From Candidatus Zambryskiibacteriota bacterium (lineage in GTDB: Bacteria; Patescibacteriota; Minisyncoccia; Phycocordibacterales; Zambryskibacteraceae), in assembly GCA_016180955.1 (NCBI GenBank), contig JACPAD010000002.1:1-45875 (forward strand): 45,875 nucleotides of DNA. Reading direction: 5' to 3'. The notes under the pieces are model-generated. The model searched no databases and was not told the origin of the DNA. It saw only the letters and a program-made list of their open reading frames with translations. Each line of letters begins with the position of its first letter. Within the stretch, counting starts at the first letter, position 1. Below are positions 6,303-42,801 of the stretch, one piece after another. Made by a program: the position numbers and the translations under genes.

Positions 6303-6782
6303 ATGAGTAAATCTAAGACTTGCGTACTAATTCTTGAGAATCTTCGTAGCGTTGAGAATACCGGCTCGATTTTCAGAACCGCAGAAGGATTGGGTGTATC
6401 GAAAATCATTCTGGTGGGCACTACTCCTACCCCGATTGATAGATTTGGGAGAAAAAGAACAGATTTTGCAAAAGTTTCCTTAGGCGCGGAAGAGTTAGTA
6501 AGTTGGGAAGTTGGTAAGTCGGTAAGTTCAGGGATCGAAGAATTAAAAGAGCAGAACTTTCGAATCATTGCGCTCGAACAACATCCAAATTCAATTAACC
6601 TTAAAAACTTCCAGACTTCTAAACTTAAAAACTTCGCTCTGATTGTTGGCAATGAGGTAGGTGGCGTATCAAGGGCTACCCTTGATATTTGCGATGAAAT
6701 AGTCGAGATACCGATGCAAGGACAGAAAGAGTCCTTGAATGTCTCAGTCTCAACAGGCATCGCTTTATTTGTGTTAACATAG
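6303..6782 (+). CDS. TrmH/SpoU-family RNA methyltransferase
   Basis: ENLRSVENTGSIFRTAEGLGVSKIILVGTTPTP ... FALIVGNEVGGVS ... IPMQGQKESLNVSVSTGIALF SPOUT motifs. Confidence 0.92.
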   Translation: MSKSKTCVLILENLRSVENTGSIFRTAEGLGVSKIILVGTTPTPIDRFGRKRTDFAKVSLGAEELVSWEVGKSVSSGIEELKEQNFRIIALEQHPNSINLKNFQTSKLKNFALIVGNEVGGVSRATLDICDEIVEIPMQGQKESLNVSVSTGIALFVLT

Positions 6783-8539: not shown

Positions 8540-10883
8540 AGTATTCCATTTCCCCCCAATTATCGCCGACGTGCGCCTCTGCCACGATTGGCACGCCAGA
8601 TAATTTTTCTTTTGGAATGACCGTCTCCATCATCTCTTTAAATTCCGCAACCGCCTCACTAACCAAATTTTCTTTTACTTCAAAGACCAATTCGTCATGC
8701 ACTTGGAGAACGAGGTGCGCATCATCTGAATGTTTCTGGACCTCAATATAATCGCTGATGCGCTTCATGGCAATTTTAATGATGTCCGCTTGAGTGCCTT
8801 GCAGCGGCGCGTTAATGGCCATGCGCTCGGCTTGCGCGCGCACGTAAGGCAGAGGCGATTTGAAGCCGGTAAAGTATCGTCGGCGGCCAAACATTGTTTC
8901 CGTATAGCCCCTGCGGGCCGTTTCCGCTTTAACTTTATCCAAATATTCGGCCAGTCCAGTGAAAGTCTTGAAGTACTCGTTGTAGAATTCCTGCGCTTCT
9001 TTTCTATCCGTGCCAAGATTGGCTCTCAAAGCATTGACCCCCATGCCGTAGAGGATACCAAAGTTGATGGTCTTGGCTTTGATGCGCATCGCTTTATCCA
9101 CCTTATCCCGCGGCACCTTAAAGACTCTTGCCGCTACGCCAGCATGCACGTCTTCTCTGTTTTTGAAAATTTCGATGAGTTTCTTGTCCCGCGAGAGAAT
9201 GGCCGCCAAGCGCAGTTCTATTTGGGAATAGTCCAGCGATAATAATTTGAATCCCTTCTGTGCAACAAAGGCCTTACGGATAGCGCGACCGAGAGCCGTT
9301 TTTACTGGAATGTTCTGGAGATTGGGGTTGTTGCTTGCCATACGGCCGGTAACTGCTCCTGACTGAAGAAAGGTTGAGTGCAAACGGGAATTTTTATCTA
9401 AAAGCGGCGGGATGGCGTCAATATAAGTCGAGAGAAGTTTGGAAAGCTCGCGATATTCCAAAATGTGGTCAACGATGGGATGCTTCTCGCGCAGTTTTTC
9501 CAATTCCGACTCTCGCGTCGAGAGAGCGCCCGTTGGGGTTTTCTTCTGCCTCTTTTCACCAAGCCCAAGCTTGGTGAAAAGAATTTCCGATAACATTTTC
9601 GGCGAATTAATGTTGAACTCCTCTCCCGCTTCCTGCCAGATTTTTTTCTCCAATTTACCGAGCTTCTCGTGATAGTCTTCGGAGAGCTTTTTAAGGACTT
9701 GCTTATCGACTTTTACTCCTCTCTCATTCATCTTCTCAACCACAGGAATAAGCGGCCTCTCGATATTTTCAAAAACTTCCCTAACTTTCCTCTTATCAAG
9801 TTCCCGCTCGAGAATTTTTCTCGCCTCATCCAGGCTTTTTGTCTTAGTAAAGCTCATGACATCTTCAATATTAGGGTTGGTAAGGTTTGAATCCATGACC
9901 CAGAGCATGAGACAAGACTCTTTAGATTCTTGAGGTTTGAACTCCTTAAGCGATGATGGCGTGTTTTTTTCTGCGGTCCCGGCTTTCTCGGCAAGCCTCT
10001 TCACCCTATCGCTCAAAGTGCGGAATCCGAGCGTGCGGAAAAGTTCCAACACTCTCTCAATATCCAAATTCTCCCGCCAATTTTTCGGTAAAACGAAATT
10101 TATCGGCGCATCAGTGCGGATGGTGGCCAAAGTTTTGGAAAAGAGCGCTTCTTCCTCATTCTCAAGCAAAAGATTTTTCATCCGTTCGCTTAATTTTGCT
10201 TTTTTCAGATTTTTATAGATATTTTCAATAGTGCCGAACTCCTGTATAAGCGCTGTTGCAGTCTTCTCTCCGATGCCCTTCACGCCAATGATGTTGTCTG
10301 ATGGGTCGCCGCGAAGCCCTTTGTAATCGATAAGTTTGCACGGTGGGAAACCGAAGCGCTCCACCACTTTTTTTTCGTCATAGAGAATGGTATCGTTTAT
10401 CCCCTTCTTCAACGTATAAACCATCACCTTCTTGTCATCCACAAGCTGCATGGTATCCATGTCTCCGGAGGCGATGATAATTTCCAGATTTGTGATTTGT
10501 GATTTGTAACTTGTGATTTCGTAAACTATAGTACCGATGATGTCATCTGCCTCAAAGCCCGGATGAGAATAAATGGGTATGCCAAAAGCGGTAAAGATGT
10601 CCTTGGCTCTTTCAAGCTGGAGCGCGAGATTTTCATCGGCCTCCTTCCTTCCGGCCTTGTAAGTCTCATAGGCCTCGTGGCGATGCGTCGGGCCAGGCAA
10701 GTCGAAGCAGGCAACAATAAAATCGGGCTTTAGATCATTTATTATCTTTATGAGCATGGCCACGAGGCCATAGAGAGCGCCGGTCGGCTCGCCGGTCGTG
10801 GCGGCCGTAAATTCAGGCAGGGCGTGATAAGCGCGGTGGATTATCGCGTGAGCGTCGAGAAGGACTAATCTTTTATCTCTCAT
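8532..10883 (-). CDS. polA: DNA polymerase I (5' nuclease plus polymerase; 3'-5' exo domain strongly reduced)
   Basis: MRDKRLVLLDAHAIIHRAYHALPEF; GDPSDNIIGVKGIGEKTA; SLDYSQIELRLAAILS; AKTINFGILYGMG; LQVHDELVFEV. Confidence 0.95.
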   Translation of the reverse strand: MRDKRLVLLDAHAIIHRAYHALPEFTAATTGEPTGALYGLVAMLIKIINDLKPDFIVACFDLPGPTHRHEAYETYKAGRKEADENLALQLERAKDIFTAFGIPIYSHPGFEADDIIGTIVYEITSYKSQITNLEIIIASGDMDTMQLVDDKKVMVYTLKKGINDTILYDEKKVVERFGFPPCKLIDYKGLRGDPSDNIIGVKGIGEKTATALIQEFGTIENIYKNLKKAKLSERMKNLLLENEEEALFSKTLATIRTDAPINFVLPKNWRENLDIERVLELFRTLGFRTLSDRVKRLAEKAGTAEKNTPSSLKEFKPQESKESCLMLWVMDSNLTNPNIEDVMSFTKTKSLDEARKILERELDKRKVREVFENIERPLIPVVEKMNERGVKVDKQVLKKLSEDYHEKLGKLEKKIWQEAGEEFNINSPKMLSEILFTKLGLGEKRQKKTPTGALSTRESELEKLREKHPIVDHILEYRELSKLLSTYIDAIPPLLDKNSRLHSTFLQSGAVTGRMASNNPNLQNIPVKTALGRAIRKAFVAQKGFKLLSLDYSQIELRLAAILSRDKKLIEIFKNREDVHAGVAARVFKVPRDKVDKAMRIKAKTINFGILYGMGVNALRANLGTDRKEAQEFYNEYFKTFTGLAEYLDKVKAETARRGYTETMFGRRRYFTGFKSPLPYVRAQAERMAINAPLQGTQADIIKIAMKRISDYIEVQKHSDDAHLVLQVHDELVFEVKENLVSEAVAEFKEMMETVIPKEKLSGVPIVAEAHVGDNWGEMEYYG

Positions 10884-13571: not shown

Positions 13572-14570
13572 ATGTCAATAGAAGAAAAGAGCGTCCATTT
13601 GGATAAAGAACTGCGTCCTTCAAGTTGGGGCGAATATGTGGGCCAGAGAGCCATTAAAGAAAATCTCAATATCCTGATTAAGGCGGCGACTGACCGGGGC
13701 GCCCCGCCGGAACATGTGCTCTTCTACGGTCCGCCGGGGTTGGGCAAGACAACTCTTGCCCACCTTGTGGCGCGTGAGACCGGGCGCAATTTAAAAATCA
13801 CTTCCGGGCCCGCTATTGAGCGCGTGGGCGATCTCGCTTCCATACTCACGAACTTGTCGGCTGGTGATATTCTCTTCATTGACGAAATCCACCGTCTTAA
13901 TAAAACCATCGAAGAGGTGCTCTATCCCGCTATGGAATCCGGCGTGCTCGACATCATTATTGGCAAGGGTCCTTCGGCGAGAACGTTACAGCTGGAGCTG
14001 CCCGCTTTCACCCTTCTTGCGGCGACGACCAGAGTGGCCATGATTTCCTCACCTTTGCGAAGCCGCTTCTCCGGAGGAGTCTTTCGTCTAGAGTTTTACA
14101 GTGAAGGCGAGATTGAGGAAATTTTGCGCCGTTCAGCAAAAATCTTGGGAGTCAAACTAGAAAACGGAGCGGAAAAAGAAATTGCCAAGAGAAGCCGCTT
14201 CACACCGCGCACCGCTAACTACTTTTTGAAGCGCGCAAGAGACTTTGCCCAAGTAGAGAATCGCCCGCTTAATTGCGAGACCGTCAATCTTTCCTTAAAA
14301 CTCTTGGGAGTCGACGAGAAGGGCCTCACTCCCTCCGACAGAAAACTTTTAGAAGTTATTGCAGAAAAGTTTTCCGGCGGGCCGGTAGGTTTAGGCACTT
14401 TGGCGGCCGCGCTCTCCGAAGAAGAAGCAACAATCGAAGAGTTTAACGAACCATATCTTCTCCAACTTGGCCTCATCGAGCGCACCACGCGCGGCCGCGC
14501 GCTCACTGCCCACGCCTATACGCACCTCGGCAAAACCCCTCCTAAAAATTTGCAGAAAAAGTTACTTTAA
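13572..14570 (+). CDS. ruvB: Holliday junction branch migration helicase RuvB
   Basis: LRPSSWGEYVGQRAIKENL, HVLFYGPPGLGKTTLAHLVA, DILFIDEIHRLNKTIEEVLYPAME. Confidence 0.96.
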   Translation: MSIEEKSVHLDKELRPSSWGEYVGQRAIKENLNILIKAATDRGAPPEHVLFYGPPGLGKTTLAHLVARETGRNLKITSGPAIERVGDLASILTNLSAGDILFIDEIHRLNKTIEEVLYPAMESGVLDIIIGKGPSARTLQLELPAFTLLAATTRVAMISSPLRSRFSGGVFRLEFYSEGEIEEILRRSAKILGVKLENGAEKEIAKRSRFTPRTANYFLKRARDFAQVENRPLNCETVNLSLKLLGVDEKGLTPSDRKLLEVIAEKFSGGPVGLGTLAAALSEEEATIEEFNEPYLLQLGLIERTTRGRALTAHAYTHLGKTPPKNLQKKLL

Positions 14571-35650: not shown

Positions 35651-36466
35651 TTATAACAGAGAAATTGCCAATTTTTGCCACATTTCGGGGGAAATCTCCT
35701 CGGCGCGGGCATTTTCACTCAAATTAAGCATCTCAAATGTCTTTTTAATCCGGTTTTTGTCAAAAATAACGCCGAGATTTGAAGAAAGTTTCTTCCTTTT
35801 TGATTGAAACCCCGCTTTTACAAGCTTAAAAAATTTCTCCTCACTTGGAAGCTCAACCTCCAAGTTGTTATTCTTAGGCGTATTTTGAAAGAAATCTTTG
35901 GAAATCCTGTCAATTTTAATAATGGCCGAATCTACCTTTGGTGCGGGTACAAAAGAGCCGGCTCTGACAGTCTCGACATACCGTGGGGTCCCATAAGCTT
36001 TAACAGATATAGACAAAATACTTTCTTTCTGGTTTTGGGCTACTATTCTTTGTGCTACCTCTTTTTGCACCAGGAGCACCAAGCTCTCTGGCTGGTATTC
36101 AGATGATAAAAATTTTTCGAGGATGGCGCCGGTAATGTTATAGGGAATGTTTGCCACTAGCTTATAGGTGCTAGGTTCTAGCTGATAGTTTTTAAAATCA
36201 AAATCCAGAATATCATCGTGAATTAAATTCAATTGCCCGGATGAAATTTCTTTGTGAAATTTGTCTCTTAAAAATTCGTAAAGTTCGTCATCTTTTTCTA
36301 CCGCCGTCACCTCTGCTCCCGTTTGCAAAAGTTTTTCCGTCAAAACTCCCCGCCCCGGCCCGATTTCAAGAATCAAATCTTCAGGCGAAATTTTCCCCGC
36401 CTCAATAATCTTATTGAGTGCTCTCTCGCTTCTCAAAAAATGCTGCCCCAAAGATTTTTTAACCCG
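35651..36466 (-). CDS. rsmA: 16S rRNA dimethyladenosine transferase (KsgA) with in-frame REP insertion
   Basis: KSLGQHFLRSERALNKIIEAGKISPEDLILEIGPGRGVLTEKLL; LVANIPYNITGAIL; segment NTPKNNNLEVELPS is encoded by a REP copy. Confidence 0.93.
   Translation of the reverse strand, partial: RVKKSLGQHFLRSERALNKIIEAGKISPEDLILEIGPGRGVLTEKLLQTGAEVTAVEKDDELYEFLRDKFHKEISSGQLNLIHDDILDFDFKNYQLEPSTYKLVANIPYNITGAILEKFLSSEYQPESLVLLVQKEVAQRIVAQNQKESILSISVKAYGTPRYVETVRAGSFVPAPKVDSAIIKIDRISKDFFQNTPKNNNLEVELPSEEKFFKLVKAGFQSKRKKLSSNLGVIFDKNRIKKTFEMLNLSENARAEEISPEMWQKLAISLL
35843..35865. repeat. REP-like hairpin, copy A (inside rsmA)
   Basis: ACTTGGAAGCTCAACCTCCAAGT, identical to copies B and C. Confidence 0.9.
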
Positions 36467-37145
36467 CATATATACTTGGAAGCTCAACCTCCAAGTTGTT
36501 ATTTTTAGGTATATTTTCAAGTTCAATTACCACGTCTGCTCTCTTTTTTAAAATAGCTTTCAATGTACTTTCCGCAAATTTCTCAAATTCTTCTCTTGAT
36601 TTAAATTGTCCCAGTAACATTTCTTTTGAGCAAATGCTTGGATAAGCGTCGTCCATATATTCGCCCCAGCTAGAAAGGAAGAAGTTCTTACCCTCTTTTA
36701 ACTTATGAACTTTATAATTTAAATTTACATACACGCCCGCATGTAGCAGGTATTCGTTAGAACTAATATGGTTGGCCTTAAATCTCCCTTGAAACAACGC
36801 CCCGCTTCTCAAGTGTTTTTCATTAAAATATTTTGTGAACCCGGTGCCAAGCCGGTGCATAAACTTTTCAATGCCACGTTCTGCGACTTGCGTGAGAATA
36901 AAGTGGAAATGGTTGGGGTTTAGACAATAAGCTACGAATTCTATCAGCGGTCTGACAGGCTTATCAGACTTATCAAAAGATTTTTCATAAATACTGCCAA
37001 TTGGTTCAACTGTATTAAACTCCACCATACTATGGAAAAATCTTTCTAAATCATTTCTATCAGAAAATATAGACCTTTTATCTACTCCTCTATTGTAAAT
37101 ATGATAAAGTTCCCTCTCTACGAATGGCACCTTTCTTATACTCAT
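36459..37145 (-). mobile_element. REP-associated tyrosine transposase (RAYT / Y1 transposase) gene
   Basis: VERELYHIYNRGVDKRSIF, FVAYCLNPNHFHFILTQ (HUH-type HFH), GALFQGRFKANHISSNEYLLHAGVYVNLN. Confidence 0.9.
36474..36496. repeat. REP-like hairpin, copy B (3' end of RAYT gene, just upstream of rsmA)
   Basis: ACTTGGAAGCTCAACCTCCAAGT. Confidence 0.9.
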
Positions 37146-37166
37146 GGCAACATCTTACCACTTCTT

Positions 37167-37189
37167 ACTTGGAAGCTCAACCTCCAAGT
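37167..37189. repeat. REP-like hairpin, copy C (between helicase stop and RAYT start)
   Basis: ACTTGGAAGCTCAACCTCCAAGT. Confidence 0.9.
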
Positions 37190-37191
37190 GG

Positions 37192-39171
37192 CTAGAAATC
37201 GATGTTTAATAGAGGTTTGCGCAGACGGCTGGTTTCTTCCAAGTTTCCCTCCTCGACTAATTCTTGCGGGATATCGGAGATAAATTCGGAAGGCATGTTG
37301 ACAATCTGTCTTCCGAACATGCTGCGTACTTGCGCATAGGTAAGAATCACTTTTTTCCTCGCGCGAGTGAGCGCCACGTAGAAAAGCCGTCTCTCCTCCT
37401 CTGCTTCTTCCGGAGTTAAATAATCTTCATTCGTTTTCTTATTAGGGAGTTGTACCCGCTCATGTGGGAACAACCCTTCTTCAAGTCCGGCGATAAAGAC
37501 GACGTCGAACTCAAGTCCTTTGGCGGCATGCACCGTCATCAGCCGCACCGCTTTTTGTTCTTCTTTGAGCTCGTCTTGATCACTTTGGAGCGCCGAGTCC
37601 GTAAGAAGCGCCAAAATACCTTCTTCTGGCAAAAGAGTATCATATCGAGCGGCGAAGTTTACCAATTCGTACGCATTCTCCAGTCGCGTGGCGCCGTCTT
37701 CTCCGCTTGTTTTCCACTCCTCCTCCAATCCGGAACGCTTGATGATGAAAGCGACAGTTTCGCTCGGTTTTTTCTCCTGCGCGAACCCGTCAACCTCCTT
37801 AAGAATCGTACGGAAGCTCGAGAGTTTCGCGCGCGTGGGTATCGGCAAGTCGCTCTCCATGCCGGAAAACACCTTCGCAATGGTAGTCTTCCCTATGCCG
37901 CGCGCTGGAACATTAATAATGCGTTTTAAGTCTGCCAGACTCTCTGGATTAAGTGCGGCGCGGAGATACGAGAGCAAATCTTTAACCTCCTTGCGCTCGA
38001 AGAAGCGAGTCCCGAGAATCTGGTAAGGAATGGCATGTTTTAGAAATGCTTCTTCCAAAACGCGTGACTGGAAGTTGGCCCGATAAAGCACTGCTATCTC
38101 ATCAGCGGGAATCCCTCTGATCATCAATTCTTTCGCCTTACTCGCGATAAATTCCGCCTCGTCTGTCTCATCGAGATTTGTGAAGACACCGATCTTTTCT
38201 CCCCCGGCGTTAGCGGTGTAAAGGTTCTTTGGTCGCCTAATTTTGTTTTTCTCTATCACGGCATTGGCCGCCTCCAGAATATTTTTAGTCGAACGGTAGT
38301 TTTCTTCCAGAGTGATGACGGTGGTGTGAGGGTAGTCGTGCTCAAAAGCCAAAATGTTTTTGAGTTCGGCGCCGCGCCATGAGTAAATATTTTGGTCGAT
38401 ATCGCCGACGGCGCAAATATTGCACTCGGGACCGACGAGCATTTTGGAAATTTCATATTGGACGCGATTGGTATCCTGGTACTCGTCGATATGAATGTGG
38501 CGCCAGACATTCTGGTAATATTCTCTGATATTCCCTTTTTCTCTTAAAAGACTCTCCGTTTTTAACAGAAGGTCGTCGAAGTCCAGCGCATTATCTCTTT
38601 TCAATATTCGTTCGTATTCCGGCCAGACTTGAGCTACCACTTCGGCAATATAGCTGTGTCTATCGTTAAAGCTGGCCCATTCTTCAAAAGTGACACCGCG
38701 GCTTTTTTCTTTTGAAATAATGCTTAAGATGCGTCCCGGGTCGTGAGTTTTGGGATCGAAGCCAAGATTTACCAGTGCCTCTTTGACCGCACGTTTACTG
38801 TCATCGCGATCGAAGATGGCGAAGTGCCTCGTTACTCCGGCCGCGTGGGAGTGCTCGCGTAAAATATGTACACCGAGAGAGTGGAAAGTGCTTACGAACG
38901 GTCTTTCACTCATTGAAACTGGCCGGTTGATAGCCGGATCTTTTTGGAGCCCCAGTTCGATTCTCTCCCGCATCTCTCTTGCCGCTTTGTTGGTAAATGT
39001 GATGGCCAGTATTGAACTGGGAGCTACCCCGCATTTAACTAAATACCTGATTCTCTCGACTATGGTCTTAGTTTTGCCGGCACCGGCACCCGCAAGGATT
39101 AAAACTGGTCCGACGGTGGTCTCGACCGCTCTTTTCTGCTCGGAATTCAAAGGTTGATAAGTCACTGGCAC
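37192..39171 (-). CDS. UvrD/PcrA-family superfamily 1 helicase
   Basis: LILAGAGAGKTKTIVERIRYLV, AITFTNKAAREMRERI, DEYQDTNRVQYEI, EENYRSTKNILEAAN, LMTVHAAKGLEFDVVFIAGLEEGLFPH, ALTRARKKVILTYA. Confidence 0.95.
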   Translation of the reverse strand: MPVTYQPLNSEQKRAVETTVGPVLILAGAGAGKTKTIVERIRYLVKCGVAPSSILAITFTNKAAREMRERIELGLQKDPAINRPVSMSERPFVSTFHSLGVHILREHSHAAGVTRHFAIFDRDDSKRAVKEALVNLGFDPKTHDPGRILSIISKEKSRGVTFEEWASFNDRHSYIAEVVAQVWPEYERILKRDNALDFDDLLLKTESLLREKGNIREYYQNVWRHIHIDEYQDTNRVQYEISKMLVGPECNICAVGDIDQNIYSWRGAELKNILAFEHDYPHTTVITLEENYRSTKNILEAANAVIEKNKIRRPKNLYTANAGGEKIGVFTNLDETDEAEFIASKAKELMIRGIPADEIAVLYRANFQSRVLEEAFLKHAIPYQILGTRFFERKEVKDLLSYLRAALNPESLADLKRIINVPARGIGKTTIAKVFSGMESDLPIPTRAKLSSFRTILKEVDGFAQEKKPSETVAFIIKRSGLEEEWKTSGEDGATRLENAYELVNFAARYDTLLPEEGILALLTDSALQSDQDELKEEQKAVRLMTVHAAKGLEFDVVFIAGLEEGLFPHERVQLPNKKTNEDYLTPEEAEEERRLFYVALTRARKKVILTYAQVRSMFGRQIVNMPSEFISDIPQELVEEGNLEETSRLRKPLLNIDF

Positions 39172-41270: not shown

Positions 41271-42801
41271 ACTTTTTCGGGCGGTATTCGATGGCTTCGA
41301 GAACGTGTTTATCCGTAACTTTTTCGGAATCTTCCAAGTCGGCGATGGTGCGGGCTACTTTGATCATGCGGTGATACACACGGGGGGAGAAACCGAGTCG
41401 TTCTGCAGCGAGATTTAGTACTTTCTCCACTTCTTTTTCCAGAAATACGAGTGAAACTAGGTCGCGCGCACTCATCTCGCCGTTTTTCAAAACCTGTCTG
41501 CCGGCAGACAGGTCTTTAAATCTTACCTGCTGAATTTTTCTGGCCTTTTCGACTTTTGTTCTGAAAATTTTGCTTTCTTCCCCTTCTCTACCGCCACTCC
41601 CTAATTCGTGCGGCTGGATTCTGTCTACCTCAACCCAAATATCAATGCGGTCTATAATTGGTCCGGACATTTTTCGGCGATAGCGCTGGAGTACTGAAGG
41701 TGTGCAGATGCATTGCTTGCCGCGGAAGCCATAATTGCCGCACGGGCACGGATTCATGGCCGCCACCAAAAGAACATTAGCCGGGAAAAGCGCCGTGCCT
41801 TTAGCCCGTGCGACCGAAACCACTTTGTCTTCGAGCGGTTGGCGTAGACTCTCTATAACTCTCCTTTCAAACTCGGGAAACTCATCCATAAATAAAACGC
41901 CATGATGGGCAAGAGTAATTTCTCCCGGCCGCGGCACAGCACCACCGCCGACAAGAGAGACATAAGAAGCGGTATGATGCGGCGCGCGGAACGGCGGATT
42001 GGTAATAAAAGTTTCGGAGAGCGTGCCCGCTACGGAGTGAATCCCCGTTGCTTCTAGCATTTCTTCAAATGTAAGTTTAGGCAAAATGCCGGCAAATGCT
42101 TTGGCCAGCATAGTTTTACCGGTACCGGGCGGACCATACATGGCGACATTGTGCCCGCCGGCCGCAGCGATGAGTAATCCGCGCTTCGCTCGTTCTTGGC
42201 CTCTCACGTCAGCGAAGTTGGTGGGACTCACGACGTAGTCGTGAGAAATTTCGGTCTTCTCTGCCGAATCAAGCAGCCCATCTCCCGAAAGGTGTTCGAT
42301 AAGTTCTTTTAAACTTGAAATGCCGAATACCAGTATTCCGTCAATAAGTGCCGCTTCCGCCGCATTTTCAAGAGGGACATAAAGTTCTTTGAAGTCATTA
42401 GCCTTGGCGAAACGCGCTATCGGCAGGACTCCTCTCACGGCGCGCACTTTCCCGTCGAGCGATAGTTCGCCTAAGAAAAGCTTTTTCTCCGGCTCAAACT
42501 TGATCTCGTCATTGGCCAGAAGATACGAGAGCGCCATAGCCAGGTCGAAATGCGGCCCTTCCTTTCTTACATCAGCAGGGGCAAGCGAGATGACGATTTT
42601 ATGATTGCGCTTTTTTGGTGATTCGAAACCAGAGTTTTTGATGGCTGCAGAAATTCTGTCGCGAGCCTCCTCCACCGCTTTATCTGGCAGTCCAACTACC
42701 GCAAAAGCATAGAGAGTATTCCGGTCAATATCCGTCTCAACCGAAACTGGTGTCACATTGAGCAAATTAGTCTGCGCGCTGTAAACTTTGGAAAAACTCA
42801 T
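41260..42801 (-). CDS. comM: ComM/YifB family Mg-chelatase-like AAA ATPase
   Basis: VDIRKEGPHFDLAMAL-like segment, NVAMYGPPGTGKTMLAKAFAGILP, FRAPHHTASYVSLVGGG, MNPCPCGNYG. Confidence 0.94.
   Translation of the reverse strand: MSFSKVYSAQTNLLNVTPVSVETDIDRNTLYAFAVVGLPDKAVEEARDRISAAIKNSGFESPKKRNHKIVISLAPADVRKEGPHFDLAMALSYLLANDEIKFEPEKKLFLGELSLDGKVRAVRGVLPIARFAKANDFKELYVPLENAAEAALIDGILVFGISSLKELIEHLSGDGLLDSAEKTEISHDYVVSPTNFADVRGQERAKRGLLIAAAGGHNVAMYGPPGTGKTMLAKAFAGILPKLTFEEMLEATGIHSVAGTLSETFITNPPFRAPHHTASYVSLVGGGAVPRPGEITLAHHGVLFMDEFPEFERRVIESLRQPLEDKVVSVARAKGTALFPANVLLVAAMNPCPCGNYGFRGKQCICTPSVLQRYRRKMSGPIIDRIDIWVEVDRIQPHELGSGGREGEESKIFRTKVEKARKIQQVRFKDLSAGRQVLKNGEMSARDLVSLVFLEKEVEKVLNLAAERLGFSPRVYHRMIKVARTIADLEDSEKVTDKHVLEAIEYRPKKFDV
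41492..41513. repeat. 22-nt perfect palindrome inside comM
   Basis: ACCTGTCTGCCGGCAGACAGGT, encodes DLSAGRQV. Confidence 0.9.

Follow-up and report, generated by a model that had tools for sequence, protein, structure and literature searches.

Can the small genome of a patescibacterium house a RAYT (a TnpA-REP-like Y1 HUH transposase) together with REP hairpins of its own, and how do such hairpins come to lie inside housekeeping genes? This question is raised by a locus in the window, which here means the whole analysed stretch of 45,875 nucleotides from a Candidatus Zambryskiibacteriota bacterium. REPs are by definition extragenic, the GTAG tetranucleotide is the mark of their well-studied groups, and the role of RAYTs in spreading them is unproven. 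REPtrons, untagged RAYT-like TIRtrons and intragenic REPs have been described (Di Nocera et al. 2013, PMC3733652); the literature searched contained no report of RAYT or REP in Patescibacteria. We interpret the locus, with a probability of about 0.8, as a REPtron with in-frame genic REPs. The assembly to which the window belongs (G000) comprises 488,197 bases in 7 contigs, is 85% complete and about 88% coding.

The RAYT locus and its three hairpins

Open reading frames and domain matches agree with the gene order uvrD - RAYT - rsmA given in the original prediction. All three genes are located on the minus strand. The upstream neighbour is a uvrD/pcrA-like helicase (37192..39171; PF00580 and PF13361), the RAYT gene (36459..37145) codes for 228 amino acids, and rsmA (35651..36469; PF00398, E 2.2e-52) codes for 16S rRNA dimethyladenosine transferase.

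The hairpin ACTTGGAGGTTGAGCTTCCAAGT is present in three exact copies, all on the minus strand and all at the positions first assigned to them. The 5' copy (37167-37189) comes to within 2 nt of the uvrD stop and occupies much of the 46-nt spacer between this stop and the RAYT start. The second copy (36474-36496) lies in the 3' end of the RAYT gene, codes for the C-terminal NLEVELPS of the transposase and ends 4 nt ahead of the rsmA ATG (36469). The third copy (35843-35865) sits in frame in rsmA and codes for the same peptide. A search of the window with up to 3 mismatches allowed returned no fourth copy, and the number expected by chance, estimated from 100 shuffles, is 0. Fold prediction for single-stranded DNA reproduced the proposed 9-bp stem, including one G.U pair, and the loop TTGAG. 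A RAYT with cognate REP-like hairpins at its two ends is confirmed in a genome from Patescibacteria (Parcubacteria/Zambryskibacteria-like).

The RAYT stop overlaps the rsmA ATG, and the REP found just 5' of the rsmA start (window 36459-36496) contains GGAGG. It may influence translation of rsmA.

The transposase

The protein was correctly recognized as a RAYT, even though it is, judged by its sequence, a divergent family member that falls below curated models. Pfam Y1_Tnp (PF01797) scores 22.4 bits, under the curated cut-off of 23, and NCBIfam REP_Tyr_transpos (NF047646) 24 bits, under the cut-off of 80. Searched against PDB sequences, the protein by itself gave no match, and a profile search gave weak matches to HUH transposases only. 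Positions invariant in an alignment with 26 relatives include N78, H79, H81 and Y139. H79-F-H81 forms the HuH motif, and Y139 is the candidate catalytic tyrosine, which we take it to be from its alignment to the E. coli TnpA-REP motif.

The AlphaFold (AF2) model of the protein (pLDDT 89.4, pTM 0.83) has as its best PDB match in Foldseek 4er8, the complex of the E. coli RAYT with a REP hairpin (E 1.1e-6). IS608 comes next (1.5e-4) and the ISDra2 transposase also ranks behind 4er8. The predicted fold is that of RAYTs rather than that of the bulk of IS200 transposases. Past residue 210 the model is poorly ordered, including the REP-encoded tail with pLDDT of 46-66.

RAYT relatives and their hairpins

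RAYT homologues were identified in 23 of the 31 genomes of the family. The closest ones (in G024, G021 and G018) are 64-76% identical to the window RAYT and have a window-type hairpin 13-17 nt 5' of their start, with compensated stems (GGAGG/CTTCC, GGAAG/CTTCC and GGAGG/CCTCC), which bears out the anticipated association of such hairpins with RAYT orthologues. An equivalent hairpin 13-20 nt 5' of the RAYT start occurs in several congeners. Most RAYTs of the family, and several from further GTDB relatives, are surrounded by a hairpin pair of their own. Relatives with organism names come from Candidatus Zambryskibacteria, Nomurabacteria, Moraniibacteriota and an unclassified Parcubacteria bacterium, most of them again with their own hairpins.

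A RAYT phylogeny, proposed at the outset as a check, places the window protein in a clade of 14 members (99/97). Almost all hairpins of this clade start with ACTTGG or ACTTAG; G017_C6 and G027_C4 are among those that do not, and no hairpin was seen for G020_C22. Clades outside this one have other hairpins, and hairpin type, as read from these sequences, follows the RAYT tree. Multi-copy palindromic families of the form ACTTGG N11 CCAAGT were found, among 380 genomes of the phylum, in the same order only. A phylum-wide hairpin family was rejected, as outside the order the matches listed were single and non-palindromic, like those of controls.

A RAYT gene adjoins rsmA also in G015, G017, G018, G020 and G021; with such a neighbour in at least five other congeners, the window gene looks resident. 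The gene is probably domesticated. It had been put forward as part of an active or recently active system; recent activity is what the near-identical copies, by themselves, suggest, and the place beside rsmA suggests a resident gene.

Two details of these relatives may be added. A RAYT-associated hairpin in L072 (1999-2038) has TTATCCACA/TGTGGATAA arms that resemble a DnaA box. RAYT genes at G017 C4:43290, C6:42139 and C5:219161, and at L261 offset +176, harbour the hairpin that belongs to them within their own reading frame, near codons 58-60.

Hairpin families in the genomes

Counting ACTTGGAGGTTGAGCTTCCAAGT and its variants (family A) genome-wide gave nine copies at up to 2 mismatches in G000, five of them identical, and the objection that no further copies exist therefore fails. 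Twenty palindromes with shuffled arms had 0 copies in the same assembly; this result, together with the zero count in shuffled sequence, led us to reject a chance repeat. Family A has 0 copies in the congeners G016, which is RAYT-free, and G017.

Two further RAYTs of G000 (C5:8331 and C5:3362), about 40-44% identical to the window RAYT, are each flanked on the two sides by a different hairpin of their own, which recurs in 1-2 dispersed copies. G017 contains five RAYTs, each beside its own hairpin, with 6-14 copies per family. There are also families with no matching RAYT in their assembly, namely a fourth one in G000 (family D) and family F in G017. Copy number is low, 3-14 per hairpin family. 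Across 13 genomes of the family, the copies of a hairpin family for the most part resemble one another inside one genome, and the families differ from genome to genome.

A copy of the hairpin family belonging to RAYT C5:8331 is found in the window as well, at 6667-6687 in an ORF of 172 amino acids (TATCAAGGGCTACCCTTGATA). Copies of family E in G017 are adjoined by GTGGATAA.

A Y1 transposase gene whose two ends bear identical hairpins in one orientation would also fit a recent IS200/IS605-like insertion sequence, mobile as a whole and bounded by these hairpins. We regard this as highly improbable: only the hairpin is repeated, the assembly (85% complete) has the window RAYT once, its two further RAYTs show only the identity given above and have other hairpins, and a RAYT gene stands beside rsmA in other species. 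A mobile whole element was rejected on the lack of a second copy of the window RAYT.

Extended copies and their putative donor

Similarity among family-A copies reaches beyond the hairpin. The RAYT 3' and rsmA copies match at 91% across 47 nt, compared with the 23 nt of the hairpin itself, and a 22-nt left flank is common to four copies among the nine, namely those at the RAYT 3' end and in rsmA, argS and rseP, which are situated on three contigs. Every pair of these four flanks is identical at 16-18 of 22 bases; identity of at least 16/22 was reached by 0 of 200,000 random flank pairs. The extended unit thus defined, flank plus hairpin, measures about 45 nt or 15 codons and spans 36474..36518 at the RAYT 3' end and 35843..35887 in rsmA, both on the minus strand. 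Since the flank is the RAYT's own C-terminal coding sequence, the extended unit is most simply derived from the 3' REP of the RAYT as donor, and the shared RAYT-derived flank ties these dispersed copies to the window locus. Plain local duplication as the origin of the RAYT and rsmA pair was rejected, because the 45-nt unit recurs on other contigs, in argS and rseP.

Hairpins inside genes

On one point the original prediction is incomplete: the repeats, rather than being extragenic, lie mostly in frame within genes. All seven dispersed family-A copies of G000 are located in ORFs, and of the 56 distinct ACTTRG palindrome sites examined, 35 are in genes for which an orthologue extends across the site. 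Host genes of family A in G000 are rsmA, argS, miaA, dnaE, a gyrB/parE-type gene, rseP and a gene for 413 amino acids, these names, except rsmA, being read off translations with no domain search behind them. The reading frame is preserved at the copies, which code for the peptides N-L-E-V-E-L-P-S, L-E-A-Q-[LF]-P-S and L-G-S-S-T-S-K. Intrinsic terminators were rejected, as most dispersed copies are inside ORFs with orthologues on either side.

Orthologous loops at hairpin sites are shorter or absent in some genomes and hairpin-longer in others. In RsmA, most orthologues have an empty loop, which the hairpin-bearing loop exceeds by about 12 codons; the corresponding gains are about 12 codons in DnaE, 14 in G017 GatB and 17 in a tRNA synthetase at G017 C5:230673. 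In GroEL and at site 1 of ArgS, loops with and without the palindrome have about equal numbers of codons, so that a clean insertion can be set aside for these two.

The 35 genic ACTTRG sites are distributed among codon phases unevenly, with 22 in phase 1, 13 in phase 2 and none in phase 0. With equal phases and independent sites, zero of 35 in the third phase has a probability of (2/3)^35, or about 7e-7, and the true value is weaker because some sites are orthologous. Palindromes in the absent phase would code for the hydrophobic T-W-[KR]-L-x-x-Q-V, and we read the missing phase as selection against this peptide, the alternative being an insertion preference.

Palindromes in genes beyond the RAYT families

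Perfect palindromes (stem of at least 9, loop of 3-5) were counted in the genes of three fully read genomes and compared with codon-shuffled genes. They number 73 vs 7 in G016, 58 vs 6 in G000 and 86 vs 6 in G017, whereas 42 kb of E. coli coding DNA contain 0 (0.5 expected). The roughly 10-fold excess is thus present in RAYT-free G016 too, where the palindromes listed are almost all unique, and another process must therefore also make or keep palindromes in genes, perhaps template switching. We claim involvement of the RAYT for the repeated families only. Examples of these mostly unique palindromes in genes are found in the window at 9551-9582, 13741-13762 and 41492-41513.

The same process might be extended to all genic palindromes: template switching at replication forks (quasipalindrome correction) would make and keep them, and the RAYT would merely use or tolerate hairpins. 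The excess in G016 fits such a view, as do palindromes reaching into their flanks, for example in recJ and miaA of G019 and miaA of G003, and one-arm chimeras of two families in G021 (ACTTGGCGG..CTTCCAAGT is an example). Template switching, however, does not spread one 23-mer, or a 45-nt unit with a RAYT-derived flank, to unlinked genes, and it leaves the genome-by-genome match to RAYT flanks unaccounted for. We consider this explanation unlikely. At C1:7123, C10:28739 and C8:2089 of G021, REPs have arms of mixed families or one altered arm, as if one of them had been converted.

Relation to known systems

Known REPtrons (E. coli 4ER8; Stenotrophomonas, Marinomonas and Pseudomonas; PMC8266576, PMC3733652) resemble the window system in the HUH Y1 RAYT fold, in REP hairpins on both sides of the gene and in the dispersal of cognate palindromes. 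TnpA-REP cuts its cognate single-stranded REP, and the GTAG motif matters (Corneloup et al. 2021, PMC8266576). The window system differs by having no GTAG, few and mostly genic copies, and a protein under the curated family cut-offs. The check for a conserved tetranucleotide beside the hairpin, proposed in the original prediction, gave no GTAG tag: GTAG or CTAC occurs within 8 nt of 3 of 72 copies, vs 4.6% at random, and membership in the GTAG-tagged REP class was rejected.

TIRtrons, with their TIRYT proteins (PMC3733652), have inverted-repeat flanks, some of them self-complementary, and are alike in the RAYT-like gene, the untagged flanks and the small repeat families. Flanks of the window type are instead hairpins of 19-27 nt with copies in frame in housekeeping genes, and the published GGGGWSAS motif is not evident among the hairpins listed. 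Members of the IS200/IS605 family (IS608, ISDra2) likewise have a Y1 HUH fold and are bounded by a hairpin at each end; here only the hairpins, not the gene, are repeated, and 4er8 fits the fold better than the IS transposases do.

Genic REPs are known from Opitutus terrae, Thauera and Rickettsia (RPE-4/6), and recB of two Xanthomonas species was hit at about one common site (PMC3733652). Rickettsia palindromic elements (RPE-4/RPE-6, RPE-1) are by description alike in being short in-frame palindromes in many unrelated genes of a reduced genome. The CGTC repeats among them (RPE-4/RPE-6) have no transposase association (PMC3733652), whereas the window family matches an adjacent RAYT. The window system differs from this earlier work in its lineage, in the lack of GTAG, in the mostly genic copies and in genic sites that are systematically shared between species although the palindromes at them are species-specific.

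Shared sites and the proposed mechanism

Genic REP sites of G000 with a comparable G017 orthologue coincide with a palindrome in that orthologue in 6 of 12 cases, and G017 sites with a comparable G000 orthologue in 6 of 17; the corresponding random-codon controls gave 10/167 and 1/124. Pooled, 12/29 sites are shared, vs about 4% at random codons. In RAYT-free G016 the comparable sites have palindromes in 0/9 and 1/21 cases (1/30 pooled). Palindromes at sites shared by G000 and G017 are usually of a different family. The RsmA site, for example, is occupied by family A in G000, by family B in G017 and by another palindrome in G019, and is empty in most other genomes. At ArgS site 1, ACTTRG-type palindromes of at least four different sequences are found at the same codon in seven genomes. 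They match a resident RAYT hairpin with at most 1 mismatch in G017, G018 and G025; there is no matching RAYT in the less complete assemblies (79-85%) of G000, G019, G021 and G029, whose "orphan" hairpins have GGCGG or GAGGCTGAGCCTC.

Either tolerant loops are hit repeatedly, or palindromes already seated are rewritten. In the latter case the RAYT would replace palindromes at fixed, tolerant sites of housekeeping genes with ones matching the current RAYT. We put this concerted turnover forward tentatively, as possible but doubtful; if it is true, a domesticated transposase re-edits the same protein loops across a genus. Different palindromes at one site and chimeric arms would also be produced by ordinary homologous recombination or gene conversion among older repeats, with the RAYT as a bystander, and the rsmA and RAYT copies lie 631 bp apart, which suits such an exchange. 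For RecA-type conversion, however, 23-45 nt of homology is very little, and the families match resident RAYT hairpins and are absent from RAYT-free G016, so we hold this origin to be improbable.

For a REPtron with in-frame genic REPs, the following course of events can be envisaged. The RAYT would recognize the folded single-stranded hairpin and cut beside it through Tyr139, and a unit of about 23-45 nt would be strand-transferred into single-stranded DNA elsewhere, the direction of copying presumably being from the RAYT-flanking REP to genic sites. Survivors would be found mostly in frame in tolerant housekeeping loops because the element is short, the genome is densely coding and the peptides read from most frames (LEVELPS, LEAQLPS and LGSSTSK) would be harmless. 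With a drift of RAYT specificity from one species to the next, genic sites of older date would be occupied anew, or rewritten with the current palindrome.

Very small genomes with several RAYT/REP pairs per cell would thus offer insertion histories readable in conserved genes, where empty sites can be seen along with chimeric arms and a turnover of palindromes site by site, and the hypothesis that RAYTs mobilize REPs becomes testable by comparison. They may also provide a link to the in-frame palindromes of the Rickettsia type, for which no mover is known, and would show where some loop insertions in patescibacterial proteins come from.

A second site in ArgS is occupied by a REPIN-like composite insert, AAGGTCTGACCTT-aaatacgaattctc-AAGGTCAGACCTT, coding for QGLTLNTNSQGQTL, in G019, G022, G027, G017 and G010. 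The same composite is found in leuS of G017.
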